Virus record (IMG/VR): IMGVR_UViG_3300009703_000016
Coordinates: 1-64,000 of that record
Origin: a virus
Reading direction: 5' to 3' (one strand)
Length of the DNA: 64,000 bases
Below the pieces are notes generated by a model that saw only the letters and a program-made list of their open reading frames with translations, had not been told where the DNA came from and ran no database searches. A program made the position numbers and the translations under genes. Shown here piece by piece: positions 3,124 through 57,559 of the stretch (its first letter is position 1; each line of letters starts with the position of its first letter).

Positions 3124-4056
3124 TTATACACCAAAATACATAGGATAGACGGACATTAGTTCATTAATTATAAGAGCGCCTAGGTCTGTAGGAATACCAG
3201 AGGTCTGGCTTCCATCATAATTAACAGTTTGTGAGAAAAGTAATTCTTTAAAGATCTCTGATTGAAGGTCTCTGATTATAACAGGAGATGCTACTGGACT
3301 AAAAGAGGTTTCATGGAAATTATATCTAGCGCGAACACCTTCTGGTGGGACAGAAAAGGTTTTTATAACACCATTTACATAATCAACAAAGTAGCATCCT
3401 TGTGCAGTAACTTCGACTTCTGTATTTACCTCTTTATTGAAAGCTAATCTGTCTGTAAAAACCAGAGAGTTCTTCTCTATATTCTGATTAGGAAGAACCT
3501 GAATATTTGAATCTCTCAATAAGAAGTTGTTAACAATCTTAGAACTACTCTGGTTAATAATAGTATCAGATCTAGTAAAGGGTTCCTGACCTGATGCTAA
3601 TGTTAGATTAAAGTATGCCGACTCAGTATTAATCTTATTTACCAGATCACCCAGCCAGTAACCTTCTACTCCTGGAGTGGATCTGTTTATCTCCATCTCA
3701 AGTGTACTGGTTGCTTTGTTAGAATAAATGAAGACCTTATTCTCTATGAATTCAATAACAGGTTGAATATTTGTAGGAGTTGCAGAGTCAAGCTCAATAG
3801 TTATCGGCTTGGAATATTCTAATCCCAACTCTCTTGTCATAGCATTCAGTAGTCCTATATAAGTTGAACTTGCACGACGTGCGAAGACATCAAGCAGGCG
3901 CTTCTTGTAGGCATCATTCCTCTCTAGTGGTAGACGAGGCAGATTAAGAGCTACACCGTGACTGTCAAGTTCGTTGAAAACAGAAGATGCTACAGGTGTA
4001 CCCTTGATAGCTATTCCGCTTACTTCAAACTCATGTCCGATTAAAGATTCAGTCAT
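3124..4056 (-). CDS. Baseplate/tail adaptor-like structural protein
   Basis: A 310-aa protein starting at an ATG that overlaps the TGA of the preceding gene (ATGA), so the two are translationally coupled. The N-terminus has GHEFEV followed by a helical segment (LPRLPLERNDAYKKRLLDVF, about residues 40-59), a pattern I associate with phage baseplate adaptor or tail-fibre-connector proteins. The remainder is mixed beta. There is no enzyme motif. It sits in the run baseplate J-like, 538-aa, 310-aa, 787-aa, so a role in linking fibres to the baseplate is a reasonable inference but not shown. The family could not be named from sequence alone. Confidence 0.55.
   Translation of the reverse strand: MTESLIGHEFEVSGIAIKGTPVASSVFNELDSHGVALNLPRLPLERNDAYKKRLLDVFARRASSTYIGLLNAMTRELGLEYSKPITIELDSATPTNIQPVIEFIENKVFIYSNKATSTLEMEINRSTPGVEGYWLGDLVNKINTESAYFNLTLASGQEPFTRSDTIINQSSSKIVNNFLLRDSNIQVLPNQNIEKNSLVFTDRLAFNKEVNTEVEVTAQGCYFVDYVNGVIKTFSVPPEGVRARYNFHETSFSPVASPVIIRDLQSEIFKELLFSQTVNYDGSQTSGIPTDLGALIINELMSVYPMYFGV
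4025..4038. repeat. 14-bp direct repeat, copy 2 (encodes GHEFEV)
   Basis: Identical to 771-784. The two copies are 3.25 kb apart, at the 5' end of one gene and the 3' end of the next. Confidence 0.8.
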
Positions 4057-5669
4057 TTAATAATCTTTACCTCACTATAGTTCTCATGAAAGATTATCTC
4101 TTTCGTATCGTAATCAATCAGCATTGTGTCATAGTGGGGTTCTAAGTGATGAACGCCACTATCTACATCTCTTACTAAGATGTGCTGTTGGTGATCGATA
4201 TCAACACCCGCAACTGTTGTACCTATAATATTAAACAAGTTGAACTCTGCAAGAGCTGTCTTGGAACTAACACGAACTATACGCTTATCTATCTCTGTGA
4301 GGTTTCCATTGAAGACGACTTCAAGAGTAAATATATGATCGCCTAATTCTGTTAATGTGAAATCAGTTGGAGATCTCAGTGATCTTGTTTCTATTATGTT
4401 GTTGACCCAGTAGTCTGTTGAAGTAGAAACTAAGGTTCCATCCTCCAGAACACCCATGGATACGCCATCAGGAAACTTAACCGTTAGGCGATGTTTTATA
4501 ACAGTACGAACTGGACGAACAAATCTCAGGTCTACCTCTACTTCCTCATCTCTTGTTATGTAGTCTCTCTGTGTCACTATTTGAACAAGAGGACTATTTG
4601 TTTTACCCACAAGTTCAGATTGAGATGGCTGGTCAAATTCAAGATCATACAATAGCAGACCAGACTCAGTGACAACCCATGCTCTTTGCATGAAAGGGAT
4701 AGGAGCAATATCAAGTGGGGTAATAACATTGTTACCACTGTCTAGTAGCTCCCACTCTCTATATGCCTCTCTGTCTGTTCTGTTTCTTAGTACATCAATA
4801 GCATGAGATGCTGCATAAGTTTCGCACTCTAGGAGCACAACATCTGATTGCCAACAAGATGTTCCAATTTTCCAGAAGGTAGAAAGATTGTCTCTACTAT
4901 GTTTGAATTGAGATATGTCTCCAAACGAATCCTTGTAGTCAACTTGGTTGAAGCCGTGTGACCATATTCTTACCTCTCCCGAAGCTGGGAAGTCAAGGGC
5001 CTGGACCTGATCAATTTCTTTCCAACCTTTCAGTGTTCTCTTTTTATCGTTATAGATAAAAGGAATCTCTTCTGCTTCTTCTGTATCTTTCCATGTTGTT
5101 CCTGAGATTCTAATCTTAGCCTGAAGGAAACCATCTTGCAGGTCTGGTCTTTCCTCCAGGAGAGAAACTCCTGATACCTCAACATATAAAGTGTTAGATA
5201 AGAATGGATTGTTTATGCCACTAAACGTGTACTCTTCACTATTGCTGTCTAACAATACGTGGTCGGTTCCAGAGTAAGTGGTCAGCAGGTTTAACCTGTC
5301 AGGTATCGCATCATACCAAAACTCTTTGATCGTTCCTGTTTCTGCTTCGTCTACTAGGTACCAAGTATTACCCACTAGTCCTGAGACAGTAGGGGCAAGT
5401 GACAGGGGCTGTAACTGGGTTGCGTTGTCTACGGAGAACTCAAATGTTTCAGGCAATTGAAACCTGTAAACAAGATCTATCTCTTGAGTATTAACAGTTG
5501 TCAGGGACGTGTTTGAGAAACCACGAAATAATTCTGTCTCTATAGTCTCAAGGTTACGACCGATTACATTCAGAAGACCTTGGCCTACTGACTGCTCATC
5601 TGTTCTAATCTTGCTCCAGTCAGGAAAACTGTTTGCAAGTTCTTGTGTAACCTTATACTTTTTTGCCAT
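4053..5669 (-). CDS. Baseplate structural protein, unknown family
   Basis: A 538-aa protein. Its ATG overlaps the TAA of the J-like gene upstream (TAATG), so it is coupled to it. The N-terminus (MAKKYKVTQELANSFPDWSK) and the following helix resemble the opening of baseplate proteins that sit next to gpJ-like wedges in large myoviruses. The rest is beta-rich with no transmembrane segment. The Pro-Asp-Trp context and the position after gp25-like and J-like genes suggest a wedge or peripheral baseplate component. No catalytic residues can be recognised, and it could also be an appendage anchor. Confidence 0.55.
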   Translation of the reverse strand: MAKKYKVTQELANSFPDWSKIRTDEQSVGQGLLNVIGRNLETIETELFRGFSNTSLTTVNTQEIDLVYRFQLPETFEFSVDNATQLQPLSLAPTVSGLVGNTWYLVDEAETGTIKEFWYDAIPDRLNLLTTYSGTDHVLLDSNSEEYTFSGINNPFLSNTLYVEVSGVSLLEERPDLQDGFLQAKIRISGTTWKDTEEAEEIPFIYNDKKRTLKGWKEIDQVQALDFPASGEVRIWSHGFNQVDYKDSFGDISQFKHSRDNLSTFWKIGTSCWQSDVVLLECETYAASHAIDVLRNRTDREAYREWELLDSGNNVITPLDIAPIPFMQRAWVVTESGLLLYDLEFDQPSQSELVGKTNSPLVQIVTQRDYITRDEEVEVDLRFVRPVRTVIKHRLTVKFPDGVSMGVLEDGTLVSTSTDYWVNNIIETRSLRSPTDFTLTELGDHIFTLEVVFNGNLTEIDKRIVRVSSKTALAEFNLFNIIGTTVAGVDIDHQQHILVRDVDSGVHHLEPHYDTMLIDYDTKEIIFHENYSEVKIIK

Positions 5670-6883
5670 TAGTTCTTATCTAAAACTACAATGGGTATCT
5701 GAACTGATGGTTCAATAATAACTCTCTCCTCTGCGCTTGGTTGATAGTCGTTCAGAAGAGTTTGTTTAATACGATTGTCTTTTAGCTTTGTCTCCTTATA
5801 GATAGAGATATCATCGAATGCCTGTTGTGCTGTGCCGATGTTTAGTATTTGACTGCTTACTGCCATGACTCTTTCGATCGCTTCATTAACAAAAAAGCCC
5901 TCTCCAATGTCAAGGTTGTTTACATAATCTTGCAGGGCAGTTTGGATGTCAATCCTGACCTGGTCACGTACATCCTGTGTAGTATCTGTACGCCATGTTA
6001 CTGACACTTGAAAGGTTAGCCCACTTAAATCTGGAGCTTTTGCAAGCCCACTTATACCCTGAGCCTGAACTCTTTCTATAGCTTCTTGACATGCATTGAT
6101 TAACGGTTGTGGAGTGTTTGGGATAACAGCTTGAACTAGGATATCAAAACTTCCTATGCCACGAGCATAGGGTCTCGCAATTATATCAGATACCCCAGGG
6201 ACAGCGAAGACCGCAAGTCTTACTGACACTTCGTTAGCTTTTTCTGCTGCAGTAACCTGATTAGATAATCGGAATCTATAGTTAGTATCGTTCTCAATAG
6301 AAGAACCATTATCTATTAGCCCAGGATTATTAACTAATAGACCAGCAGCTGCTGTGTAGTTTGTGAAATCATGAAAGGTAAGTGTGTTTGTTCCTACGTT
6401 AGATGTGGACCCATCAGCTGTGGCTTCTACTGAAATCCATTGCTCCGCAGATAATCTGTTCAGGAACGTGCCTACGCTCACCCTGTATACAGTTCCAGAG
6501 TTGTTTATTCCAGTTGACACAAATGTTCCAGAAGGGATAAAGATATCTGTATTACTGTTGATATCTCCAAATGTTCCTGTTTCTACATAGAATCTAATTA
6601 GTTGGTCGGCCGCTGAAGCCCCTGCTCTGACTGCTGGAGCACGAGGAACTCCTAGCATATCTCCAAAATAGTCAAGAAATTGTCCTTCTGCAAAAGGTAA
6701 GAAGCCTCTAAGGAGATTTATATCAAACTCCTGATAGGCCTTATTTAGTTTTCTATTTACTACACGTAAGAGATTACGTGCCTTTCCACCCGGAGAGGTT
6801 CGTGTGATATTGGTTTCATTGATCAGCTCGTTTAGGGTTTCACCCTGTAAACGTTCAAATGATTTTTCAAATAAAAGTGGGAT
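5669..6883 (-). CDS. Baseplate wedge protein, gpJ-like, with apparent ATC start
   Basis: A 404-aa protein of the baseplate J-like family, a component of the contractile tail baseplate wedge. The N-terminus has the expected opening (about residues 20-30, TRTSPGGKARNLL), then LLRGFLPFAEGQFLDYFG and LGVPRAP, matching the family pattern of a helix that leads into a GxxR motif. The first in-frame ATG (6658) would cut off 75 residues of this conserved region. Upstream the frame stays open back to the TAG of the gp25-like gene at 6898. An AGGAGG lies eight bases before ATC at 6883, ideal spacing, so I place the start there. ATT four codons further up is too close to the ribosome site. The downstream gene overlaps by TAATG. 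Confidence 0.8.
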   Translation of the reverse strand: MPLLFEKSFERLQGETLNELINETNITRTSPGGKARNLLRVVNRKLNKAYQEFDINLLRGFLPFAEGQFLDYFGDMLGVPRAPAVRAGASAADQLIRFYVETGTFGDINSNTDIFIPSGTFVSTGINNSGTVYRVSVGTFLNRLSAEQWISVEATADGSTSNVGTNTLTFHDFTNYTAAAGLLVNNPGLIDNGSSIENDTNYRFRLSNQVTAAEKANEVSVRLAVFAVPGVSDIIARPYARGIGSFDILVQAVIPNTPQPLINACQEAIERVQAQGISGLAKAPDLSGLTFQVSVTWRTDTTQDVRDQVRIDIQTALQDYVNNLDIGEGFFVNEAIERVMAVSSQILNIGTAQQAFDDISIYKETKLKDNRIKQTLLNDYQPSAEERVIIEPSVQIPIVVLDKN

Positions 6884-6890
6884 ACCAATC

Positions 6891-6898
6891 TCCTCCTA
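6891..6898 (-). promoter_or_regulatory. Ribosome binding site that supports an ATC start
   Basis: The minus strand reads TAGGAGGA, merging the TAG stop of the gp25-like gene with a perfect AGGAGG. Eight bases further on is ATC, in frame with the conserved J-like N-terminus. No ATG, GTG or in-frame TTG lies at usable spacing. Confidence 0.7.
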
Positions 6899-7372
6899 TC
6901 GAGTTCCACGTTCGTCAAATCTACTACGATTATCCAGGTCTACATAGACACCCTTCTCTAAGTAATCATACAGGAATGTGGCACTAATTACAGTGCCAGA
7001 CTGTATTCTATTTTCTGCAGTAGCTAATACAGCTAAGCTTAATGAAATTAGCACCTTATAAATACTCACAGGTGTGACTCTGATTTCTACATCTGAAACA
7101 GAGACTAGCTGAGAAAGAGAGCTTTCTAATCTAATCTTAATATTCTCTGCTGTTTCTCTAGAGTTAGACTCTCCAACGAAGTCATCTAAATCTGCACCTA
7201 CTGTAATATCTTCTTTCCAGTCACCAAGACTAGATTTTACAATAGTAAACATTTCATTACGAATAGAGAGTAGTAGATCTTCTGAGGTGTCTTTTATGTC
7301 ACCCTGATTATCTAGTAGTAAGTCCCCATCCCAAGAGAAATCCAAATCCACTGAATCATAATTTCCTGCCAC
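6896..7372 (-). CDS. gp25-like baseplate wedge protein
   Basis: A 158-aa protein of the gp25/gpW-like baseplate family, a small core wedge component of contractile tails. The pattern fits well: DLDFSWDGDLLLDNQGDI near the start, then a helix with IRNEMFTIVKSSLGDW, then repeated beta strands (SVSDVEIRVTP and the LISLSLAV region). It starts at a GTG with GGAG nine bases upstream. It lies directly before the J-like gene, the usual order for these two wedge genes. Related proteins have been called lysozyme-like, but no lysozyme catalytic signature is evident and a structural role is more likely. Confidence 0.8.
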   Translation of the reverse strand: MAGNYDSVDLDFSWDGDLLLDNQGDIKDTSEDLLLSIRNEMFTIVKSSLGDWKEDITVGADLDDFVGESNSRETAENIKIRLESSLSQLVSVSDVEIRVTPVSIYKVLISLSLAVLATAENRIQSGTVISATFLYDYLEKGVYVDLDNRSRFDERGTR

Positions 7373-23693: not shown

Positions 23694-24287
23694 TTATAAA
23701 TCATGATACTCTTGTATCTGTTTGATCTTCTCAAAAAAAATCCTTTTTGAATAGTCTCGTTTCATATAATTGCAGATTGTGCAACATGGTACACAATTAT
23801 CCTTAAAATAGCCAAGGGCGTTATTAATCCTGTCGATTCCATTGTATTTTTTGTTTAAGTTAAGATCCCCACAATAAAAACAAGGCTGAGTAATTAAAGC
23901 TTCAAATTCTATAAAGGATAGACCCCATTCTCGGTCTTTCTTTTTGGCATTTCTTTTGTAGGTAGAGAAGCGACCCCTGACTGACTTATCATAGTTTCTA
24001 CTATATTCATTCCGTTCTTCTCTGTGACTTGAATTATATTCTTTTGCCCTTTTCTGTTCTGATATTTTATTGCGAAAATAGAAAGCTCGTTTACGTTCTT
24101 TTATTAACTCTTTGTGATTATTTTTGTATTTTCTATCCGCTTTCCTTATTTTATCACGATTCACTGTGGCATAATCTTTCTTGCAGTTTTTGCAATAAGC
24201 TCCTAATCCATCTTTAGACTTCTGTTGTTTGTGGAACTCAGAAAGCGCTAAAGACTCTTGGCACCTAGAGCAAATTTTTTCCTTCAT
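23694..24287 (-). CDS. HNH homing endonuclease
   Basis: A 197-aa free-standing endonuclease. An N-terminal zinc-ribbon-like pair (C6, C9 and C32, C35) is followed by a very basic helical region (about 40-120) likely to bind DNA. The C-terminal HNH part has CFYCG (136-140), NGIDRINNALGYF (149-161) and NCVPCCTICN (164-173), where the D-R-I-N and Cys pairs fit the HNH treble-clef with structural zinc. There is no good ribosome site. It lies between a tube-paralogue gene and the chaperone gene, with a short gap before it, as for a mobile endonuclease that invaded a late operon. Its composition is more AT-rich than its neighbours. Confidence 0.85.
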   Translation of the reverse strand: MKEKICSRCQESLALSEFHKQQKSKDGLGAYCKNCKKDYATVNRDKIRKADRKYKNNHKELIKERKRAFYFRNKISEQKRAKEYNSSHREERNEYSRNYDKSVRGRFSTYKRNAKKKDREWGLSFIEFEALITQPCFYCGDLNLNKKYNGIDRINNALGYFKDNCVPCCTICNYMKRDYSKRIFFEKIKQIQEYHDL

Positions 24288-39868: not shown

Positions 39869-40084
39869 TTATGAATAAGCCAAGCTCAGTCGGCTATCCC
39901 AAATATTATCAAATAAAGCATCTCCGTCAGCCCAAGTTATTGATATATCCTCCAAAGGGCCCGTCTTTATAAAAACAATTCTCTGTATTCTCCAAGAAGG
40001 AGCTGAGCTCGCCGTACCAGGCAAAGACTCTCCTATATACAGAGGAGAGCCGCCTGGAGTTTCATCTATTTCTTTATTATACAT
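39869..40084 (-). CDS. Short fibre protein, C-terminal half of a miniaturised duplicate
   Basis: A 71-aa protein. Its middle and C-terminal parts (YIGESLPGTASSAPSWRIQR and LFDNIWDSRLSLAYS) parallel the end of the 226-aa protein at 40367..41047 (YVGEATPGTATSAASWRIYR and SFDQVWDDRLSLTY). The ATG lies inside the end of the preceding 57-aa frame. With that frame it looks like a second, shortened and split copy of the 226-aa gene. It may still be made, since the frame is intact and coupled. Confidence 0.65.
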   Translation of the reverse strand: MYNKEIDETPGGSPLYIGESLPGTASSAPSWRIQRIVFIKTGPLEDISITWADGDALFDNIWDSRLSLAYS

Positions 40085-40250
40085 ATAATTCTACACTCGT
40101 AAATTCACCAGCACCACCAGTAGGGTTGGATGCATTAGAGGAAGTCAACTCATTCCATGATGGTCCTGAAGTAATAATAATCCCTAACAAATCATTGATT
40201 TGAAAATCAGGATCTGTACCATTATTTCCGGTGCGCACAAATAAAGACAC
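40077..40250 (-). CDS. Short fibre protein, N-terminal half of a miniaturised duplicate
   Basis: A 57-aa frame starting at GTG (40250) with a good GGAGG six bases upstream and ending at TAA 40077. The sequence SLFVRTGNNGTDPDFQINDL parallels the start of the 226-aa protein (TRLYVRTGNTGTDPSVDVDD). The next gene starts inside its last codons. The middle region of the 226-aa protein is absent. It is a real, ribosome-site-led small gene and also evidence of a tandem duplication. Confidence 0.6.
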   Translation of the reverse strand: MSLFVRTGNNGTDPDFQINDLLGIIITSGPSWNELTSSNASNPTGGAGEFTSVELYV

Positions 40251-40366: not shown

Positions 40367-41047
40367 TCACGCTGGTAGATTGTAGGTTAGAGAAAGTCTA
40401 TCGTCCCAAACCTGATCAAAAGAAGTACTACTATTGGCATATAACTTGATCAATTCCTCATCGCCACCGCCACTTTCATCTAAACGATAGATTCTCCATG
40501 AAGCTGCTGAGGTTGCAGTTCCAGGGGTGGCCTCCCCTACGTAGGTTAACTTGCCAGGATTAACCTCATCTAATAATAATACTAATGGCGTCGTTCCCAT
40601 CTCTACTGCCTCCCAAGAAGTTCCATTTCCAATATACAACTGATTAGTTGTTGTGTCATAGAAGAACTCCCCTAATCTGGTTTCAGCAGGAAGACTACTG
40701 GCCTGTGGAGAGGTTAAGCGTCCGTCTGTTAAATCCCAATCATCACCAATAAGATCTTGGAGAATCATGTAGTCAGCTATATAAGCGTCTGCTCTTTCTC
40801 CTAGGATTCCTGTCTTGGACCACTCAAGTCCAGAAGTGGTGATAGCGTCGTATAGATCTTGTGAGTCTCTTAATCTCCTAGCATTGAACTGACCATCATC
40901 AGCAGGGCTATTAATGGCTTGATCTGGATCAGAAGCAGATATTAGTAGCCAACCAGATGCAGTGGGAACTGTAAGCCCAAGATCATCTACATCAACAGAT
41001 GGGTCTGTTCCAGTGTTTCCTGTTCTTACATATAGTCTAGTTGCCAT
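40367..41047 (-). CDS. Fibre/appendage protein
   Basis: A 226-aa protein whose ATG follows the TGA of the 164-aa gene by one base. It opens with TRLYVRTGNTGTDPSVDVDD, has a central helical/loop part with ADAYIADYMILQDLIGDDWD, a segment RLGEFFYDTTTNQLYIGNGT typical of tail-fibre repeats, and ends in WRIYRLDESGG ... WDDRLSLTY. The pieces at both ends recur in the two small genes downstream. A fibre or fibre-connector role is inferred from these repeat-type motifs. Confidence 0.6.
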   Translation of the reverse strand: MATRLYVRTGNTGTDPSVDVDDLGLTVPTASGWLLISASDPDQAINSPADDGQFNARRLRDSQDLYDAITTSGLEWSKTGILGERADAYIADYMILQDLIGDDWDLTDGRLTSPQASSLPAETRLGEFFYDTTTNQLYIGNGTSWEAVEMGTTPLVLLLDEVNPGKLTYVGEATPGTATSAASWRIYRLDESGGGDEELIKLYANSSTSFDQVWDDRLSLTYNLPA

Positions 41048-46294: not shown

Positions 46295-48607
46295 TTAGTT
46301 ATCAAGATCTGGCTTTGGTTGAGCGAAACCCCTTGCAACTGCATCTTTATAAAAAGATTTAGCTTTTATTGGGTTCTGCTCCTGAACTAGAATACGGCGA
46401 TATTCATTGTCTGCCCAGTCTTGCGATCGGAAAGTAGGCTTTGTGTCTACCTGATCTTTAGTTTCCTCAGTAACGGAAGGCGTTGTTACCTCAGTTGGAT
46501 TGTCTACGGTTTCTTTAGGTGTTCTAGAGAGTCCGTCATTGACTTTATCAGCAATGCGAACCATGTCAACCTTCCCTGAAATTGTTTCTAGTGAATTGTC
46601 AAGTACCTCATCGCTGATTTTTGAAAAATTATCCTTAAGATCGTCGGTAAGCGTACCTTCTAATGTGTGTAAGTTCTCAAGTCTTGCAATCTTCTGACTA
46701 CGTAAGCTGTGATTAGCATTTACGAGTTGGTCAGTTAAGACTTCAATGTCTGAGTATGTTGCACGCAACTCTTGGCGAAGAGCAGTTAATTGGTCATTCT
46801 TGTTTCCAAGCTTGTCTTCAAGCCTAGTTGACTCTGCAACTTGAGCATCGAATTCATCCTGAACAACAACTAATCCAGTAAGAGCTAAGGCCTTGCGTAG
46901 ACCATCTTCACCAATGCGTTCTGCAAGTGAGATAATCATCTGCTTTAACTGGTTAATCTCTTTATCCTTAAGAGCGGGTGCTTCGTCCATGGACTCTTCA
47001 TCCCAGGGGTTTCCATACAGTCCAAGATCAAGAGTATTAAGAACTGAGCGTACAAGGTCTGCTGTCAGGCGAGAATCCTCTACTTCTTCAGGTGTTTCCT
47101 TGGCAGAGTCTTCAACTTTCGAGTCGGACTCTACACAATCACACCCCATTGCTTTCGCTTTTCTGGAGACAGAAGTATACACACTGCTTTTCTTAGCCGA
47201 TTCAACTGTTGAGCTGTCCATTAGTTTCAAAACTGCATTAACATGAGCACAGTCTACAACAGGCAGGGACATGTCTGGTCCGCAGAACGAACTCTTTGGC
47301 AACTTCTCACGGTCCTCAACCGAGAGCTTGTCTTCAAGCAACTCATTAAAAGCATCGTTAAGCAAGAGGCTTTCTTCGTCTGTTAAGTTAAAGTCATAGG
47401 ATTGACCGTCTTGAACGCTAAAGATCTTATCCAGAATAGGGAGGACATCACCTTTAGATTCATTGTCATCCTGAATGACTTCTTTGTTTGTTTCTGAGCT
47501 ATCTTCGGAGTCTGCAACTGTTTCAGCTGTGTCTTTAACCTCAGCTTCTACCTTAGCGTTTTCCTCTGCTTTTACAGTGGGCTCATCTCCACTCTCTTCA
47601 GAAGTTTTAACTTCATCTTTGACTTTGTCATCATCGGCCTTGGTATCAATATCCATTGCAGAATCCTCCTTGTGAAAGTAATCAGCGACAGGATACAAGA
47701 ACATGCTTGCTTTTTTATCCTTTACGCTATCCAAAATACCATTTGATTCGATAGATAGAACACCTGAATGTCGATCAGCTGGAGTATTAACAAATGAATA
47801 TTCGTCATAATCCAAGCTACCGGCAATAACAAAACACTTCTTGTCTTCATATACCTTTCCAGGTCTATGACCACAGTGTTCCTCATCTAACCAATTAGTA
47901 CTACAAATGGAACATACGGCTTTGTCAGATATAGCTCCAACAGAACCGGTTAAGAATCTACCATCTAAAACTTTTTGGATGGCATCTGGGTCAGTAATAT
48001 CGGCTGTTAGTTCAATGAAACCAACGCCACGATAATGCTTATCACCTAAGACACTATCTATTAGCTTAACCATTTGTAATTTTTCAATAAAAGATTTATC
48101 ACTACCGCAGAAGTCTTTCCAAAAGTCAGAGTCAGCACGGCCAATATCCTTCTTTCTGGAATCTCGCAGTACGTGATTTTTGAACCTATCCACTACTTGA
48201 CCAACAGTCTCTACATATCTTGATTGGACTACGCGACCAACTGGATCTTTATGATCTTCGTGGTGTACCTGGATTGGTTTTGGATATAGTTCAGTAAATG
48301 TTTTTGCGCCATCTCGCATCTTATCTGGTAAGTAGAATCCGTTATTTCTAGTTACGAGACCTGCATGAGTGGCAGCTAGTCTAATAACTAGGCCATTACC
48401 ATTTACTTGAGTAGGTTGAACAGTCTCTGTTCCTGGCTGGGTACCTAATCCAGAAGGATGGGGTTCGCCAGTTTGGGGCTTAAAGGCGCCCATATAATCA
48501 TCTTGTACTTTTTCAAAAGACTGCTGGTTGTAATCTAGAACTTTAAAATCTACTTGATCGCTAAATTCCCAACCTCTATCAGTTTTTCGTCCATTATCAA
48601 TGCTCAT
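46295..48607 (-). CDS. Prohead protease fused to acidic scaffold
   Basis: A 770-aa protein with AAGGAG before its ATG. The first 280 residues look like a serine prohead protease: PIQVHHEDHKDPVGRVV (H115, H116, H119), then GFIELTADITDPDAI and FLTGSVGAISD with S222 as candidate nucleophile, and SFVNTPADRH at 271-280. A Cys/His group (C232, C235, C245, H247, C258) suggests a bound zinc in the protease part. From about 320 on, the protein is very acidic and Lys/Glu-rich with long helices, as in scaffolds that are cut during head maturation. Fusion of protease and scaffold in one gene is known in other phages. Confidence 0.75.
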   Translation of the reverse strand: MSIDNGRKTDRGWEFSDQVDFKVLDYNQQSFEKVQDDYMGAFKPQTGEPHPSGLGTQPGTETVQPTQVNGNGLVIRLAATHAGLVTRNNGFYLPDKMRDGAKTFTELYPKPIQVHHEDHKDPVGRVVQSRYVETVGQVVDRFKNHVLRDSRKKDIGRADSDFWKDFCGSDKSFIEKLQMVKLIDSVLGDKHYRGVGFIELTADITDPDAIQKVLDGRFLTGSVGAISDKAVCSICSTNWLDEEHCGHRPGKVYEDKKCFVIAGSLDYDEYSFVNTPADRHSGVLSIESNGILDSVKDKKASMFLYPVADYFHKEDSAMDIDTKADDDKVKDEVKTSEESGDEPTVKAEENAKVEAEVKDTAETVADSEDSSETNKEVIQDDNESKGDVLPILDKIFSVQDGQSYDFNLTDEESLLLNDAFNELLEDKLSVEDREKLPKSSFCGPDMSLPVVDCAHVNAVLKLMDSSTVESAKKSSVYTSVSRKAKAMGCDCVESDSKVEDSAKETPEEVEDSRLTADLVRSVLNTLDLGLYGNPWDEESMDEAPALKDKEINQLKQMIISLAERIGEDGLRKALALTGLVVVQDEFDAQVAESTRLEDKLGNKNDQLTALRQELRATYSDIEVLTDQLVNANHSLRSQKIARLENLHTLEGTLTDDLKDNFSKISDEVLDNSLETISGKVDMVRIADKVNDGLSRTPKETVDNPTEVTTPSVTEETKDQVDTKPTFRSQDWADNEYRRILVQEQNPIKAKSFYKDAVARGFAQPKPDLDN

Positions 48608-48615
48608 ATATAAGT

Positions 48616-51600
48616 CTACTCCTTATTAAAAACTTCGATCTCTGCTCTTGCACTTGCATGTAGCGGAGGGATTTCCTCTAGGTCGAAGCTAGATTGAATG
48701 GAGTGAGAATCTGCAGAGGCATTTTTACACTTATCACAAGAGTCCTCTGGGGCAGCAATTCTCCATTCACTAAACTTCAAGTCTCTAGCTGCTTCAAGAA
48801 AACCAAGGTTATGTGCTTTCCTAATCTCTACATCTTCCATGAATTTGTTTCTAAACCTAAATGAATCAAAGACAGCTTTAACTCTGTGGATTCTATCACC
48901 CTTTGACAGATCCGCAATACTCTGCCTATCTACAGCATTGATTGTATCTCTGATCAGTCGTTCTATGTAGAAATCTATACGTTGTTGGATCTTGGAACGA
49001 GAGCGAATAGACGCATCAATTTGTTGATTACTATCACTATTCAGTTCTTTATAACCCCTCATGAAAGCTGCACTTGCTCGGCTATTGAGATCCTTAGACA
49101 TAGAATCTTGAGTTGAAATAGCAAGCTGTCTAAACAGGAAGAAGTCAAAACCATTCTTATTAACCATCTCTACAAGGTCACTCTCTAAGTCATTATACTT
49201 TGGGGTTAAGAAGTCTGTTGTCTTTGCCTGTGGCTTATTAGCAGCTGCAGTTTTTGCTCTTCTTTCTTCTGCTTGTAACTGCTCCTCTCCAGCTTCAACT
49301 CTTTGAGTTTCTGTTACAGAGGTAGACCTTGAAGCAGCAGCAGCCTTCGCAGCTGGAGTGAAGGGTTCATCAACAGCCTGGATTAAAGCTTTGGGCTCAT
49401 CTATTAGCTTCCAGAATGTAGAATGCCACTCTGGGAACTGTTCTGCTAGATCCTCTATCTCTTGGGCCTCTAGAGAAGTTGGGATATCAAATGGCTGTCT
49501 TCCCATTCCAATTCTTGCTTCATGAATGGTAATAGCATTTTTTGCAAATAGATCTGCATGGTGATTTTCTTTTTTAATCTGATGATCTAAATCGATCTCT
49601 TTAAACTTAAGGAACACTTTGTGTTCTTGGTTTAGTACATCAGAACCGAAGTTAGATTCTAGTAAAAGCTCACTAACTAGAAAATCATTAACCTGACACT
49701 CTAGAGTTCTTTGAATGTCTTTTACAGAGTCAACAAGATTCTGTGACATATTATCAGAAGTAGCACGGTTTGCAGTATTACCCTGGATAGTAATAAGTTT
49801 ATTACGTCTAGTTACGAAAAGGTGATTGGGAACATTATAGCAATAAATAATCCCACTATAATCAACCTCACTAACATCTCTCTTGATGTTCAAAAATCTG
49901 TTTCGAGCTTTTCGTTCCCTCAGGTTAGCTCTTAGGTAAAAGAAGTGACCGATTTCAGGACTATGTTTTTCAGAAATATTACAGTTATATCCAGCAGATA
50001 TTAGAAGTCTCTGGATCAAGTCAACAACAAGCGGCTCGGTTACTCTCATATAGTATTCAAGTCCGCCACTTCTACTGTCTCTTTTTCTGAAGGCTACCTT
50101 CGTGAAGTTACAAGCGAACACCTTCCTAGCTGCTAGAGTAAAGTTCTCTGCCCAGCTAAAAGCCTCTACCGTGGTAAATTTCTTGAAGAATCCACCCAGA
50201 GTATTAGCATCAATTCTTATGCAGTTCTTATTTCCTACCTTCTGGGCTGTCCAAGGAATTTCCAAGTCAGATAAGACTTTGATTATATCCTCTTCCTGAC
50301 CAGTACCCCTTCTTCCTTTTAAGAACAAGAAGTCACCTGGCTCGTTCCACATAGGTTCATTGCCAGCTATATAGCCAGCAACAGCAGCAAGACTTATTTC
50401 GTCCTTGTGAGGTAATTTAACATTTGCCTTGTCTGCAAAAGAGGTTGTACTAAGTAGGTGACACTTGTACCCAGCTTTGCCAGCTAAGATATCCTTTGCA
50501 GACATCTTGGTCCACATACATTCATCGTTTGTACAAACCCACATGTCATGATTTGGAGTGACAAGAATGTCTACTCTTGAGTTTTTAAACTTGATCATCT
50601 TACCAACATAAGGATTTTCATACTTATAATTAGCAATGTGAAATTCAATCCTTTTACTTTCTGGATTATAAGTGGCAATCTTTTCTTTTGTATGATCGAT
50701 AGCCCAGTGGAATTTCCACCCAGATTCAGTTAGTGTTTGAGTACTAGAATCGTAACATTCACCTTCACCCATATCTACAGCTGAAATACCAAGACCAGAG
50801 AAGACTCTCTTCTTGAAATGTTCAAGATAACTCTCTGCACGTAGGGCTCTATTCTCTGTACCAATAAGTTCGATATTGTGTCTATGAGAAGTAACGATAC
50901 CGCCTTCTGAAGGCATGTATTGAATTTCACGTCTGGCGATTTCAATTTCTGTCTCACCCTGTTCTGTAATAGTTGCAGGTTGAGCATCGCTACCTATTTG
51001 GTAATGGAATAGTGGAAATAAGTGTTGATATATAAGAAGTTCTATATTCTCTTCAATCTTTCTAAGAGCACGAATATCATCTATGACTGGAACTAGAGTG
51101 GGCGTCCCAAACATGAGACCTTCTTTCTTGTTGAAGTAGAAATGTACAACATCTTCTGCTGCAAAGATCTTGAAGCTACCATCATGCATACGTTGTTTCC
51201 AACGGCGGACCTTACCAAACTTGTCAGCATCAACCAGCATTGTTTCTGGTGGAGCAATAAAGTATCCAGCGATTGGCTGTAATAGCTTCTCTTTTCCGGG
51301 AACCTGTCTAGGTTGTCCACCTGATGCAGACTCTTTCCTTACTTTTACAAGAAAAGCATTGGATTTTTTAATCAATCCAGAACCGATGGCTTTGACAAGT
51401 TCATCTGTGGGGATACTTGTAGCACGTGCTATTTGGTCAAGTCGTGATTTTATATATTGTATAGTACGAGGATTTGGGCCAACGAATTCATAACCTTCTT
51501 TAAATAGTAGGCCAATCTTCTTTAGGTAAGCCTGATGAACATAGGAGTCGGTATCCTCTACGCGGCCAACCTGGGAAAGATCATATTCAGACTGTATAAA

Positions 51601-51810
51601 GTCACCACGTCTACCCCTGTCTGTATTATAGCTAAGAACATTTGGCTTAACAGGTAAAATATTAGCTGGCTGCTTGTGTTCAGGAATAGAAAAGCCCTTA
51701 AGCTCAGGGCGAATAACTGGACCACGATCTTTGATTCCTACATTAATATTACTATCTGAAATAATAGGAAAATTTACCTTATCTCCAAGTTGAAAACCAA
51801 AAATATTCAT
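48616..51810 (-). CDS. Portal protein with intein
   Basis: A 1064-aa precursor read from ATG 51810; an upstream TTG at 51837 would add nine residues but has no ribosome site. Removal of a 327-aa intein (352-678) leaves a 737-aa portal. The portal part shows the phage portal pattern: VHFYFNKKEGLMFGTPTLV, IEENIELLIYQHLFPLFHY and GLGISAVDMGEG. The C-terminal part, about 650-737 of the spliced chain, has paired Cys (CDKCK), as in minor-head-type extensions. The portal forms the dodecameric DNA gate at the capsid vertex and docks the terminase encoded upstream. Confidence 0.85.
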   Translation of the reverse strand: MNIFGFQLGDKVNFPIISDSNINVGIKDRGPVIRPELKGFSIPEHKQPANILPVKPNVLSYNTDRGRRGDFIQSEYDLSQVGRVEDTDSYVHQAYLKKIGLLFKEGYEFVGPNPRTIQYIKSRLDQIARATSIPTDELVKAIGSGLIKKSNAFLVKVRKESASGGQPRQVPGKEKLLQPIAGYFIAPPETMLVDADKFGKVRRWKQRMHDGSFKIFAAEDVVHFYFNKKEGLMFGTPTLVPVIDDIRALRKIEENIELLIYQHLFPLFHYQIGSDAQPATITEQGETEIEIARREIQYMPSEGGIVTSHRHNIELIGTENRALRAESYLEHFKKRVFSGLGISAVDMGEGECYDSSTQTLTESGWKFHWAIDHTKEKIATYNPESKRIEFHIANYKYENPYVGKMIKFKNSRVDILVTPNHDMWVCTNDECMWTKMSAKDILAGKAGYKCHLLSTTSFADKANVKLPHKDEISLAAVAGYIAGNEPMWNEPGDFLFLKGRRGTGQEEDIIKVLSDLEIPWTAQKVGNKNCIRIDANTLGGFFKKFTTVEAFSWAENFTLAARKVFACNFTKVAFRKRDSRSGGLEYYMRVTEPLVVDLIQRLLISAGYNCNISEKHSPEIGHFFYLRANLRERKARNRFLNIKRDVSEVDYSGIIYCYNVPNHLFVTRRNKLITIQGNTANRATSDNMSQNLVDSVKDIQRTLECQVNDFLVSELLLESNFGSDVLNQEHKVFLKFKEIDLDHQIKKENHHADLFAKNAITIHEARIGMGRQPFDIPTSLEAQEIEDLAEQFPEWHSTFWKLIDEPKALIQAVDEPFTPAAKAAAASRSTSVTETQRVEAGEEQLQAEERRAKTAAANKPQAKTTDFLTPKYNDLESDLVEMVNKNGFDFFLFRQLAISTQDSMSKDLNSRASAAFMRGYKELNSDSNQQIDASIRSRSKIQQRIDFYIERLIRDTINAVDRQSIADLSKGDRIHRVKAVFDSFRFRNKFMEDVEIRKAHNLGFLEAARDLKFSEWRIAAPEDSCDKCKNASADSHSIQSSFDLEEIPPLHASARAEIEVFNKE
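49777..50757 (-). other. Intein in portal protein
   Basis: A 327-aa intein begins at Cys (CYDSSTQTLTESGWKF) and ends ...LITIQGN before Thr of the C-extein (TANRAT). The N-terminal splicing block and block B (VDILVTPNHDMW, with TxxH) are clear, and the C-terminal block is YCYNVPNHLFVTRR. The penultimate residue is Gly instead of the usual His. The middle has a weak LAGLIDADG-like trace (AAVAGYIAGNE) and looks like a decayed homing endonuclease. The joined extein reads GEGE-TANRAT, a plausible portal sequence. Confidence 0.85.
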
Positions 51811-51817
51811 TCCCTTT

Positions 51818-53293
51818 TTAAACCTCTGTATTATCAAGTTCAGCCAAGAAGGCTGCTAGCTTATTGTCATCTGGGGTCTGTGCCTCAAAGAAACACTGTG
51901 GTATTACCCTTACTGGCGTATTAGCTTGAGTTATTATAGCATCAACTGCCTGATCTACCTCATTATTTCCAGTTGGATCAATTGTTATATTAGATTCTCC
52001 CAAAATATCGTTAACATTAGTATCAAGAACAAGCATGATATTATTTGTTGTCGTATCTACAGATATTAACACATTACTTTCTGGACCTAAGAATTCTTCA
52101 AAGAATTGGGTAAGAACAGAGTTTGCAGCCTCTGCATCTGGTATTTCACAATTCAACCCACCAGAAAGAGCCCGAACTGTAGCAATTAAAAATTGTATCA
52201 TCCTAACAATCAACAGCTTATCATATTGTTTTGTTAAGAATTCCAGTGTTTCCTGTTGACCCCCACCGACAAACTTATCCAGTTCAGATAGTAACTCAGC
52301 AAGAACACTTTCTACCTCCACTACACCACTTGTAACGATTCTTTTCAGATGAAAAACAGAAGAGCCTAGACTGTTCTGCATATTACTTATGTAGTCATCA
52401 TAGCTTAAACCTGCAGATCTAGCGCTTCGAAGTGCACCACTAACAGCTGGACTATTAAAATCTACACCTGTTAACTGCTCAGTGCCTGTTATGCCAGTGA
52501 TCTGTTCTAGTTCATTAGTTCTGCTTTCAATTGCTGAAATGTTCTGATTCTCTAAGAACCCACCGGTTTTTATTTTTTCTAGTGATGCGCTTAGTTGTCC
52601 TATTACACACTGTAGGGGGTCCGTAACAAGAACCTTGTATTGACCAAAAAGCTGTGTGATGTTTGTGAATATAGGTTCAAATATAGGCTGAATTAACAGC
52701 TTCATTATGTCAGTGCTCTCCAGTATCTCCTTGGATGTCTGCCTATATAACATTGCAGACATGAGGGATATCATTCTTTGTATATCAGGAATGCAAACAT
52801 CATTAAGAGCTTTTAGTAATAAACATGCATCTTGATATACGTCAGAGGCATTTAGCATATTCATAATAAAAGCTAACTGTTTTAGATAGTTCCCTAGTAG
52901 ATCTTCAAGTGTATTAAGAAGGGTATCGTTTAAGCTAAGCGCCAAGTCTGCCCTAAATTTTAATCGTAGAGAGCAAGGGACACATTTCTCTAGCCACTCT
53001 AATCCCAAGCCAGACATTTGATTTCCAGCTGCAAGAATTCCAGAAGCGTCGATGGGAAGTTCCACGCTAATACTGGATTCTGAAGCTGCATTTAACAACT
53101 GTTGTATTATATCAGGGATTGGTGGTGATATAGCATTGGTAAGGTTTGAGCTGGCACTATCGGCACCCACCTGCATCATTACAGTGCAGGACATTAGACC
53201 CCCAATAACATTATCCTCCGCAGGCGCAGAGAGCATCTTCTTCTGGAAAAGTTTAGCGACCTGCGAACAGTCTTGTAGTTTCGTAGCTTCCAT
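51818..53293 (-). CDS. Helical virion protein with cysteines, unknown
   Basis: A 491-aa protein upstream of the portal gene. It is mostly helical (LNDTLLNTLEDLLGNYLKQL, ELLSELDKFVGGGQQETLEF) with several Cys (for example KCVPCSLRL, CEIPDAEAA). It has hydrophobic helices but no clear transmembrane span. The start is an ATG four bases after the previous stop and without a good ribosome site. Located between terminase and portal, it may be a head-internal or portal-associated protein. No family recognised. Confidence 0.5.
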   Translation of the reverse strand: MEATKLQDCSQVAKLFQKKMLSAPAEDNVIGGLMSCTVMMQVGADSASSNLTNAISPPIPDIIQQLLNAASESSISVELPIDASGILAAGNQMSGLGLEWLEKCVPCSLRLKFRADLALSLNDTLLNTLEDLLGNYLKQLAFIMNMLNASDVYQDACLLLKALNDVCIPDIQRMISLMSAMLYRQTSKEILESTDIMKLLIQPIFEPIFTNITQLFGQYKVLVTDPLQCVIGQLSASLEKIKTGGFLENQNISAIESRTNELEQITGITGTEQLTGVDFNSPAVSGALRSARSAGLSYDDYISNMQNSLGSSVFHLKRIVTSGVVEVESVLAELLSELDKFVGGGQQETLEFLTKQYDKLLIVRMIQFLIATVRALSGGLNCEIPDAEAANSVLTQFFEEFLGPESNVLISVDTTTNNIMLVLDTNVNDILGESNITIDPTGNNEVDQAVDAIITQANTPVRVIPQCFFEAQTPDDNKLAAFLAELDNTEV

Positions 53294-54427: not shown

Positions 54428-57400
54428 TTAAATATTCTTGCGCTTGGGTGGACCACCACGTGCGCCTTTTCTAAAGTCGGAACCTCTCCCAGGGGAAACA
54501 TTTGACCTACCTGGAATATAAGACTCTTTCCGTTGTTTTTCAACTGGTTCTGTCCAAAGCGGTAAAGATTCTCTTGCTCTATATCCAAACTGAGTCTTAT
54601 TTGGATTTTCAAAGGCAGATCTGTCATTGTCTGGCTTAGCAGCCTGTGCCTGCTGTAGCTGAGTAGGTGCGCCGCTTCCCATGTTTGGATCAAAATTATT
54701 GTGTCTTATTGGAGAAAACAATATGCGATGATCTGATCCAGGCTTGCCAAACGAGGTTTTTTCAAGAGTGAAGGCAACAAGAGCTAGCATTAAGGCATCA
54801 AGATTGTGATCTCCCAAGCCCTCACTGTTTGTAGCATACACAAACTGTCCAGTTGGAGATACGTTCTTGACTATGTAACCCATCAACTCTGCTGCCATCT
54901 GAATGTCACTTTCGGGGAATAGAATATCTCCAGCTTCAAACCTTCTAACTGAATTTTCAACTAAGAAGCCCTTTGCTGGTTTATTAACCTTTTCTTTAGT
55001 AAAGGGATCGTGGGTCTCTACCTTGCTTCCGAAGTCATAAGCTTTAACAATAAAAGGAAGTCTTGAGTCAATATGCTTAGGTCCCTTCTCTGGATTAGAC
55101 ATTGAGTCATAACCAAACTTATGCAGTACTTCTACTTGCATTGCTCCATAGCCACGATCTACATAAATAGCGAATGGTCTCCACTTTCTATTAAACTCTG
55201 CGATACGATCGCATGCTGCAAGTTGTGTCCAGCCTGCTCTTTGAACAATGTCCTGATCTACAATGTAGAACTTACTAGTTGCTGGATTAAAACCAATCAC
55301 TCTGATGGTTGTACCAATAGCTGGAGAGTTCCAGTCTACACCTATACTATATAGCCAGCTTGGCTGTGGAGACATGTCTTCATATTCATAATCAACCTGT
55401 GCAGCCTCAACGTATTGAACCTGGAAGACACCCTCTTCTTGTTCACCAAAGTCAGCCAAGACTTCATGCTTATAGCCGATATCCGTATACTCATCTCTAA
55501 AGTATTGTTCCATCTCTGGATCCCAGTTAGGATTAACTGCTGATGAGTAATGAAACTCTCGCCACTTATCAGAACGACAGTTGTCATAGAACTTCTCACG
55601 TTTACCAGATGGAGTGGAACTCATCCAAACAAGAGCGTCTGGATGGTCAATGGTGATAGCCATAGCAGCTTCGACATCAGCTTTACTTAGATAATCTGCT
55701 TCATCAAACACAAGCATGTTAGCATCTTGACCACGAGCACTAGCTGCACCACTTCCTGACTTAGTTCCTGCAGTGAAACCCTTTATATAGGAACCATTGT
55801 GAAGCTCCATCGAATATTGAGGAGCTTTAACGTTTCGTCTAATAGAGTTAGAAAGTGCAGGTTTACTTTGTAGTAGTTCTTGTAAACGAGCAAAGATTAG
55901 ATCAATTTGTGATTGAAAAGGAGTGATGAGAACAACTTTAAAATTGTTATTAGTGAACATGTGAAACAGAATAGATATAACAAGACTCTCTGTCTTGCCT
56001 GCTCGACGCCCAATACGAAAGATTTTTCTTTCTGCTGTACAATTATGAACTATGACCCCATCACTAACAAAGTTGTGACGTGTATCTACCTCTATATCGT
56101 AGACAGGTTCTTGGCCAATCAACTCTATGCTTTTAATTTTAGTTCTAGTAGTAGTCTTTAGTTTTCCACGCTTTTTATTATGATTCCTTTTTTTAGTTTC
56201 TGACAAAGCTAATAAAGACTTCTGTTCCTTTCCATAGATAGGACCAGAAAAATTCAGAAAGGTTTCTATATCACTAATTCTATTAATAACTAGAGACCTA
56301 GATACGTCTCCATTCTTTTTCATATCGACATAGACCTTACTCGTTGCAATGCCAATCTTTTTTAACAACAGTCTATATAATCTCAAGAAGTCATCACTAC
56401 CGCTAGATAGTGACAATACTACCCTTAGGTGGCTTAGGTGGTTTTCTTTTTTAAGATAAACACAACCATCACCAGACCACGACCTGTTAATAAAATAAGA
56501 CAATGCTTCTTTTGAAAACTTAAATGCAAAATTAGTAATAGATAACTCTCTCGTATATTTATCCCTACAGCCGATATCTCTTAAAAACACCAGTAGCGGA
56601 TGTGATTTGCCAGATATGCTAATTGTCCAAAATTCTTTATGAGAAACCCCATCCTTGCTAATTTGAGCAGGCCTGTAGGATACTAGTGGACGATTTGTTT
56701 TAAAATGTTTTTGAACTAAATCAGCGAACTCTTCAACATATTCTCTTCTTGTATTTGAAAACTGAACAACATGCTTTTGACCAACAACGCTAGTATTAGA
56801 TACGTAACCATCTGTCACAATATAACCTAATAGCTTTGCAAGATTGATTGAATTTTCGTTTCCAAATATTCCAAAGCTATTTAATGTATATACACGATCA
56901 CCCACAGAGAGCCCCTTTTCTATAGAGGAGTAGACTCTTTTAAAGGACTTGTGACCAAATAATTGATTAGTTGCCCCAGCTTTAACCCATGAAAGAATAG
57001 GGTGATTGTCAGTTACTTTTAATATATCACCATTAGTGAGTTCTATTTTATAGATATTTTTGAGACCATTATCCCAGGTGTTTAATACTTTATAAGAGTT
57101 TTGAGTCTGTTTTCTATTTTCATTATAGGTAACAACCTTGTCTCCAACTTTTACATCCTTGATGTTTCTAACAGTTCCATCAGCTAGAAATATTTTAGAA
57201 TCCCCTTGTAAACAACGGAGCATTTCTGCCTGATAAGGACGATGGTAGTTAGAGGCTCTTCCTGGAAACCTCTCTACCAACCTGTCACGTTCTTCTGCAT
57301 TTTTTCTTATCCAGACACTGTGATCTGGATCAAGACAATGCCAATCTAAAACTTCTGCTGCCCAAGTTACAGGATCCAGAAGCAGGGCAATGTTGTCATG

Positions 57401-57559
57401 TGCTGGAATGAGTGATGCTGTTTCATCACCTACATAAGATTCAGGGATGCCTCCACATTGAATCTGGAAGGTTGAGCCCTTTTTTAGCTTATGCTTGCAG
57501 GTGTAATTCTTAACGCAACTACGACAAGTTTCACTTGTATTTAATAGATTGAGTGCCAA
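54428..57559 (-). CDS. terL: Terminase large subunit with intein and N-terminal Cys cluster
   Basis: A 1043-aa precursor from a TTG start; removal of a 391-aa intein (116-506) leaves 652 residues. The ATPase part has Walker A GRRAGKTES (517-525 of the precursor, ten residues after the intein) and Walker B MLVFDEADYL. The nuclease part has IGVDWNS, YVDRGYGAMQVE and a later DHNLDALMLALVA, the usual acidic sites. Unusually, the first 35 residues carry four Cys (C12, C15, C21, C35) like a zinc ribbon. It translocates DNA into the head and cuts it, with the portal as docking partner. Confidence 0.92.
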   Translation of the reverse strand: MALNLLNTSETCRSCVKNYTCKHKLKKGSTFQIQCGGIPESYVGDETASLIPAHDNIALLLDPVTWAAEVLDWHCLDPDHSVWIRKNAEERDRLVERFPGRASNYHRPYQAEMLRCLQGDSKIFLADGTVRNIKDVKVGDKVVTYNENRKQTQNSYKVLNTWDNGLKNIYKIELTNGDILKVTDNHPILSWVKAGATNQLFGHKSFKRVYSSIEKGLSVGDRVYTLNSFGIFGNENSINLAKLLGYIVTDGYVSNTSVVGQKHVVQFSNTRREYVEEFADLVQKHFKTNRPLVSYRPAQISKDGVSHKEFWTISISGKSHPLLVFLRDIGCRDKYTRELSITNFAFKFSKEALSYFINRSWSGDGCVYLKKENHLSHLRVVLSLSSGSDDFLRLYRLLLKKIGIATSKVYVDMKKNGDVSRSLVINRISDIETFLNFSGPIYGKEQKSLLALSETKKRNHNKKRGKLKTTTRTKIKSIELIGQEPVYDIEVDTRHNFVSDGVIVHNCTAERKIFRIGRRAGKTESLVISILFHMFTNNNFKVVLITPFQSQIDLIFARLQELLQSKPALSNSIRRNVKAPQYSMELHNGSYIKGFTAGTKSGSGAASARGQDANMLVFDEADYLSKADVEAAMAITIDHPDALVWMSSTPSGKREKFYDNCRSDKWREFHYSSAVNPNWDPEMEQYFRDEYTDIGYKHEVLADFGEQEEGVFQVQYVEAAQVDYEYEDMSPQPSWLYSIGVDWNSPAIGTTIRVIGFNPATSKFYIVDQDIVQRAGWTQLAACDRIAEFNRKWRPFAIYVDRGYGAMQVEVLHKFGYDSMSNPEKGPKHIDSRLPFIVKAYDFGSKVETHDPFTKEKVNKPAKGFLVENSVRRFEAGDILFPESDIQMAAELMGYIVKNVSPTGQFVYATNSEGLGDHNLDALMLALVAFTLEKTSFGKPGSDHRILFSPIRHNNFDPNMGSGAPTQLQQAQAAKPDNDRSAFENPNKTQFGYRARESLPLWTEPVEKQRKESYIPGRSNVSPGRGSDFRKGARGGPPKRKNI
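56042..57214 (-). other. Intein with LAGLIDADG endonuclease in large terminase
   Basis: A 391-aa intein from Cys116 (CLQGDSKIFLADGT) to Asn506 with the canonical end FVSDGVIVHN, followed by Cys507. Block B has KVTDNHPILSW (TxNH). Two LAGLIDADG-like motifs are visible, LLGYIVTDGY and FINRSWSGDGCVY, so this looks like an intact two-motif homing endonuclease. Insertion is just before Walker A, a conserved site that favours homing. Confidence 0.92.

Follow-up and report, generated by a model that had tools for sequence, protein, structure and literature searches.

A probable ATC start codon in a baseplate wedge gene of an uncultured contractile-tailed phage

Introduction

Where does translation of a conserved phage gene begin if its reading frame offers no ATG, GTG or TTG ahead of the residues shared by its homologs? 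The question is raised by a Baseplate_J gene located among the minus-strand structural genes of an uncultured contractile-tailed phage, represented by the 65,976-base IMG/VR virus record IMGVR_UViG_3300009703_000016; positions 1-64,000 of this record are the stretch analysed here (the window). In practice, gene finders accept ATG, GTG and TTG alone, and genes with near-cognate starts are therefore shortened or missed. Some bacterial genes start with AUU, AUA or AUC, and initiation at these codons is held back by IF3 (PMC13009471; PMC5472188). Based on a comparison of start sites among related phages, combined with a control for sequencing error, we suggest that this gp6-type wedge protein is probably translated from AUC at 6883 by genuine near-cognate initiation.

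Results

The gene and its neighbors are arranged as follows:

6896..7372, minus strand: gp25-like wedge gene with GTG start and TAG stop (PHROG 120, baseplate wedge subunit, E 1.5e-4; alignment A2)
5669..6883, minus strand: Baseplate_J gene (gp6-type wedge), 404 codons counted from ATC and including the stop
4053..5669, minus strand: next gene, with ATG start and a 1-base overlap with the Baseplate_J stop

In addition to adjoining the gp25-like gene, the product scores 62.3 bits against the Pfam Baseplate_J profile (cut-off 21.1), is assigned by PHROG to the baseplate wedge subunits and has profile matches to solved baseplate and triplex proteins. AlphaFold predicts N-terminal helices, with a low confidence over residues ~1-60 that makes the model add little.

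Read directly on the minus strand, the 5' end of the gene is GAACTCGA TAG GAG GAG ATT GGT ATC CCA CTT, and the elements relevant to its start are:

6898-6896, minus strand: TAG stop of the gp25-like gene, in frame with Baseplate_J and overlapping the Shine-Dalgarno sequence
6892..6897, minus strand: AGGAGG Shine-Dalgarno sequence, 8 nt ahead of ATC and overlapping TAG
6881..6883, minus strand: ATC, the inferred start codon, aligned with the ATG of homologs
6656..6658, minus strand: earliest ATG in frame (residue 76), a conserved Met inside the protein and an unlikely start

The gene coordinates, the ATC and the spacing of AGGAGG given in a preliminary description are thus all exact, as is its claim that no ATG, GTG or TTG precedes 6658: the frame is open from the TAG, and none of the three codons is found between this and 6658 (75 codons). 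By itself a run of 74 codons lacking them is not rare (P ~0.08 with the window's own codon usage), and folding of the start region is not unusual. The TAG and the ATC share one frame and are separated by four codons, a 12-nt gap; the Shine-Dalgarno sequence ranks 6th of the 45 window genes by core anti-SD energy and 2nd when a longer anti-SD is considered. ATC is one base from ATG and has a suitably spaced Shine-Dalgarno sequence with no better start nearby. Two other codons were considered and rejected, namely ATT at 6889, which is only 2 nt away from AGGAGG and not part of the conserved protein, and TTG at 6888, which is out of frame and meets a stop after 18 codons.

Relatives were located via the major-capsid gene in viral contigs, where 13 of 36 records had the wedge gene, and a wider scan yielded 69 loci, with starts read in about 55. 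Scanning genome contigs returned one remote fragment alone and the sheath gene one new locus; the gp25 alignment was too variable to be used as a scan basis. Among the 13 records with the wedge gene, an ATG is aligned with the ATC, mostly as ATG-CCN (Met-Pro-Leu/Ile). In alignment A1 all 11 other sequences begin with ATG at the ATC column, and nearly all of the ~55 loci have ATG at the aligned residue, which is the comparison with related phages that the preliminary description had called for; the exceptions in the wider scan are TTG in two identical contigs and GTG or TTG in a few distant loci. L084, the closest relative (57% identity), likewise has a gp25-like gene that ends just upstream, with the arrangement TAA-ATG. 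Since the start residue of the homologs coincides with the ATC position, the Baseplate_J protein would begin at that residue; judging from the alignments, this placement is not due to chance, and ATC appears to be an ancestral ATG site changed at its third base.

A start at ATG 6658, which would produce a shortened protein, is very unlikely. Although it is the first canonical in-frame start and has a GGAG two bases upstream, this spacing is too short for a Shine-Dalgarno sequence, the Met is internal and conserved in several relatives, and, as originally pointed out, 75 conserved residues would be lost; our alignments show their conservation in all homologs.

The strongest alternative to initiation at ATC is that the virus in fact has ATG, with an error from sequencing, assembly or consensus calling at base 6881. 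That ATC is one base from the codon used by nearly all relatives, and that a pattern scan for another copy of the ATC start site found none, speak for an error; the same facts (one base, one contig, no independent copy) count against an AUC start. However, a second contig of the window virus (G001, IMGVR_UViG_3300011013_000023) aligns to the window over 25,813 bp without gaps, with 21.1 kb lacking any difference; the 6 mismatches are confined to positions from 61,292 onward, and one of these is a synonymous change in a listed gene. The overlap of this contig stops at 40,164, short of the Baseplate_J start. In an error control that included all ORFs of 15 mostly whole records plus 119 further loci (2.3 Mb), none of the genes with homologs was interrupted by a premature in-frame stop within 1.7 Mb of homologous coding sequence, with 61% of simulated stops being recovered. 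This bounds substitution errors at 6.9e-5 per base (95%), a value that is an average over contigs and no substitute for reads, and corresponds to an expectation of ~0.007 error-broken starts among the 45 genes of the window and 0.2 among the full set of 1253 ORFs tested.

A stringent start-codon scan of these 1253 ORFs flagged Baseplate_J, with 48 of 58 homologs extending upstream of its first canonical start, and no other window gene. It also detected one more true case, in the gp25-like gene of a relative (G033), to which reading the wedge genes by hand added a third, in the Baseplate_J gene of locus L133:

L107:2509-2511 (G033, IMGVR_UViG_3300042731_006512): apparent ATT start of gp25-like gene, behind TAAGGAGGT
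L133:2989-2991 (IMGVR_UViG_3300033067_000628): apparent ATT start of Baseplate_J gene, behind AAGAGG

The context of the former is TTTAAGGAGGTATGCGAAG-ATT-TCT-GAT, with ATT aligned to the ATG of homologs beginning with MSDYDSIDL; its Shine-Dalgarno sequence is a full anti-SD complement (-13.4 kcal/mol) that beats 192 other ORF starts of the genome. The latter reads GATCTTAAGAGGTGCAAC-ATT-AGA, and residues 1-384 of the protein starting at ATT align with 1-384 of the L137 homolog at 52.6% identity; its first ATG lies nine codons on, without a Shine-Dalgarno sequence. Each ATT start was found in one contig only, so that the cases supporting an AUC start are themselves single-copy. In all three cases a gene of the gp25/gp6 pair has ATG changed at its third base (ATC, ATT and ATT), and the sequences suggest that odd starts recur there; what we claim is recurrence and not enrichment, as the sample was centred on this pair. 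A looser survey by ungapped extension was too noisy and was not used.

The preliminary description had allowed for either a rare start or an error for ATG. Both were fair readings, and a genuine ATC start is favored because of the error bound, the 21 kb of identity with the second contig and the two ATT starts in relatives. The error alternative thus appears weakened rather than closed, and we regard it as unlikely; the remaining doubt about the ATC start is a single base in one contig.

That the contig is instead a defective variant with a lost start codon is highly improbable: a single substitution in a gene without other damage would give this picture, but the reading frame and all neighboring genes are intact, the phage should depend on its wedge protein, and ATT starts are seen again in relatives. 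Read-through of the TAG into a gp25-gp6 fusion, suggested by the shared frame and the merely four intervening codons, is hardly tenable given that all relatives make two proteins from separate starts, that TAG ends 9 of the 45 window genes and interrupts none, and that a strong, ideally spaced Shine-Dalgarno sequence would be pointless.

Discussion

The case for initiation at AUC is built on the position of the codon, the Shine-Dalgarno geometry, the conservation of the start residue and the recurrence of ATT, with initiation itself being inferred. Following the change of an ancestral AUG to AUC at its third base, the strong Shine-Dalgarno sequence located on the gp25-like stop codon would keep a 30S subunit or re-initiating ribosome at AUC, where initiator tRNA would start at a reduced rate. 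The Baseplate_J start may thereby be coupled to the gp25-like gene and sensitive to IF3. With 12 nt between the upstream stop and AUC, partial re-initiation would be permitted; a gap of +14 nt cuts re-initiation by 40-80% in E. coli (PMC10666635). Wedge proteins of T4-type baseplates are needed in few copies, and a reduced wedge output would be tolerable and perhaps useful, considering the few copies per virion. Near-cognate codons of S. aureus, which accompany strong, extended Shine-Dalgarno sequences, have an output of about 10-30% of AUG (PMC13009471); by analogy with these published measurements on near-cognate codons, Baseplate_J output would be lowered. Against an AUC start, AUC is weak as a start codon and is discriminated against by IF3.

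ATC itself is conserved in no relative: ATG is found in these or, less often, GTG or TTG, with ATT in the distant L133 alone. Regulatory cases usually have a conserved odd start, although a codon can be used without such conservation; its absence here argues more for tolerance than for an old regulatory device. It is possible, if doubtful, that the gp25-gp6 pair of this group repeatedly gains near-cognate starts backed by Shine-Dalgarno sequences, which would set a low wedge level and perhaps make assembly sensitive to IF3.

The Baseplate_J ATC most likely belongs with the known near-cognate starts of infC, pcnB, cvfC1 and ccpN. The IF3 gene infC starts with AUU in E. coli, ATC in Streptomyces and AUA in S. 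aureus (PMC5472188, PMC13009471), so that it shares a third-base near-cognate of AUG with Baseplate_J and ATC is among its documented forms; it differs from the phage structural gene, whose relatives have ATG, in having a conserved odd start and in being under autoregulation by IF3. A near-cognate start is also combined with a strong extended Shine-Dalgarno sequence in cvfC1 (AUU) and ccpN (AUA) of S. aureus (PMC13009471), where the starts have been measured and are conserved across relatives, in contrast to the Baseplate_J ATC. The GTC start of Streptomyces sigR, a different non-canonical codon, sets the balance of two operon genes, as demonstrated by experiment (PMC5472188); a comparable regulatory role of the Baseplate_J ATC would be hypothetical. 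Compared to T4 gp6-type wedge proteins, the window gene is alike in sequence family and in its place beside a gp25-like gene, and unusual in its start codon alone. The literature searched yielded nothing usable on phage structural genes that start at AUC or AUU, and absence there is no proof of absence. With three cases in a single baseplate gene pair, near-cognate starts seem to be under-counted in phage structural genes, and they can be detected by comparing start codons across relatives under a control for the error rate.

Additional features

Two further kinds of flags in the stringent survey trace to frameshifts and not to odd starts. Those of the L071 type reflect a conserved frameshift in another phage group (L051-L083), which splits a prohead-protease-like gene at AT(A/C/T)-CA(C/T)-GA(A/G)-CGG in 19 of 19 contigs with a recognised site (for example near 7590-7620 in L071 and 6835-6865 in L068); homologs outside the group, including window 46295-48607, have a single uninterrupted frame, and the split looks like a programmed +1 frameshift from its sequence. 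The flag in L009 (3430-3480) corresponds to a protease-like gene that is frameshift-split in that contig alone.

Within the window, the large-terminase and portal-like genes (54428-57559 and 48616-51837) each seemingly contain an intein, as judged from translation only (motifs Cys ... VHNC and GECYDSSTQTL ... TIQGN). Among the tail genes, the translation of 23694-24287 is a small protein that shows CxxC...CxxC spacing and ends in an HNH-like zinc motif at its C-terminus, perhaps a homing endonuclease. The translation of a structural-region gene at 59129-61600 combines an N-terminal exonuclease-like part (FDIETGG) with a C-terminal kinase-like motif (HGDLHFKNVM...VIDFG). Finally, minus-strand frames at 39869-40250 resemble pieces of the neighboring gene at 40367-41047 (LFVRTGNNGTDP, GESLPGTASSAPSWRI), as if they were a broken or frameshifted duplicate of it.
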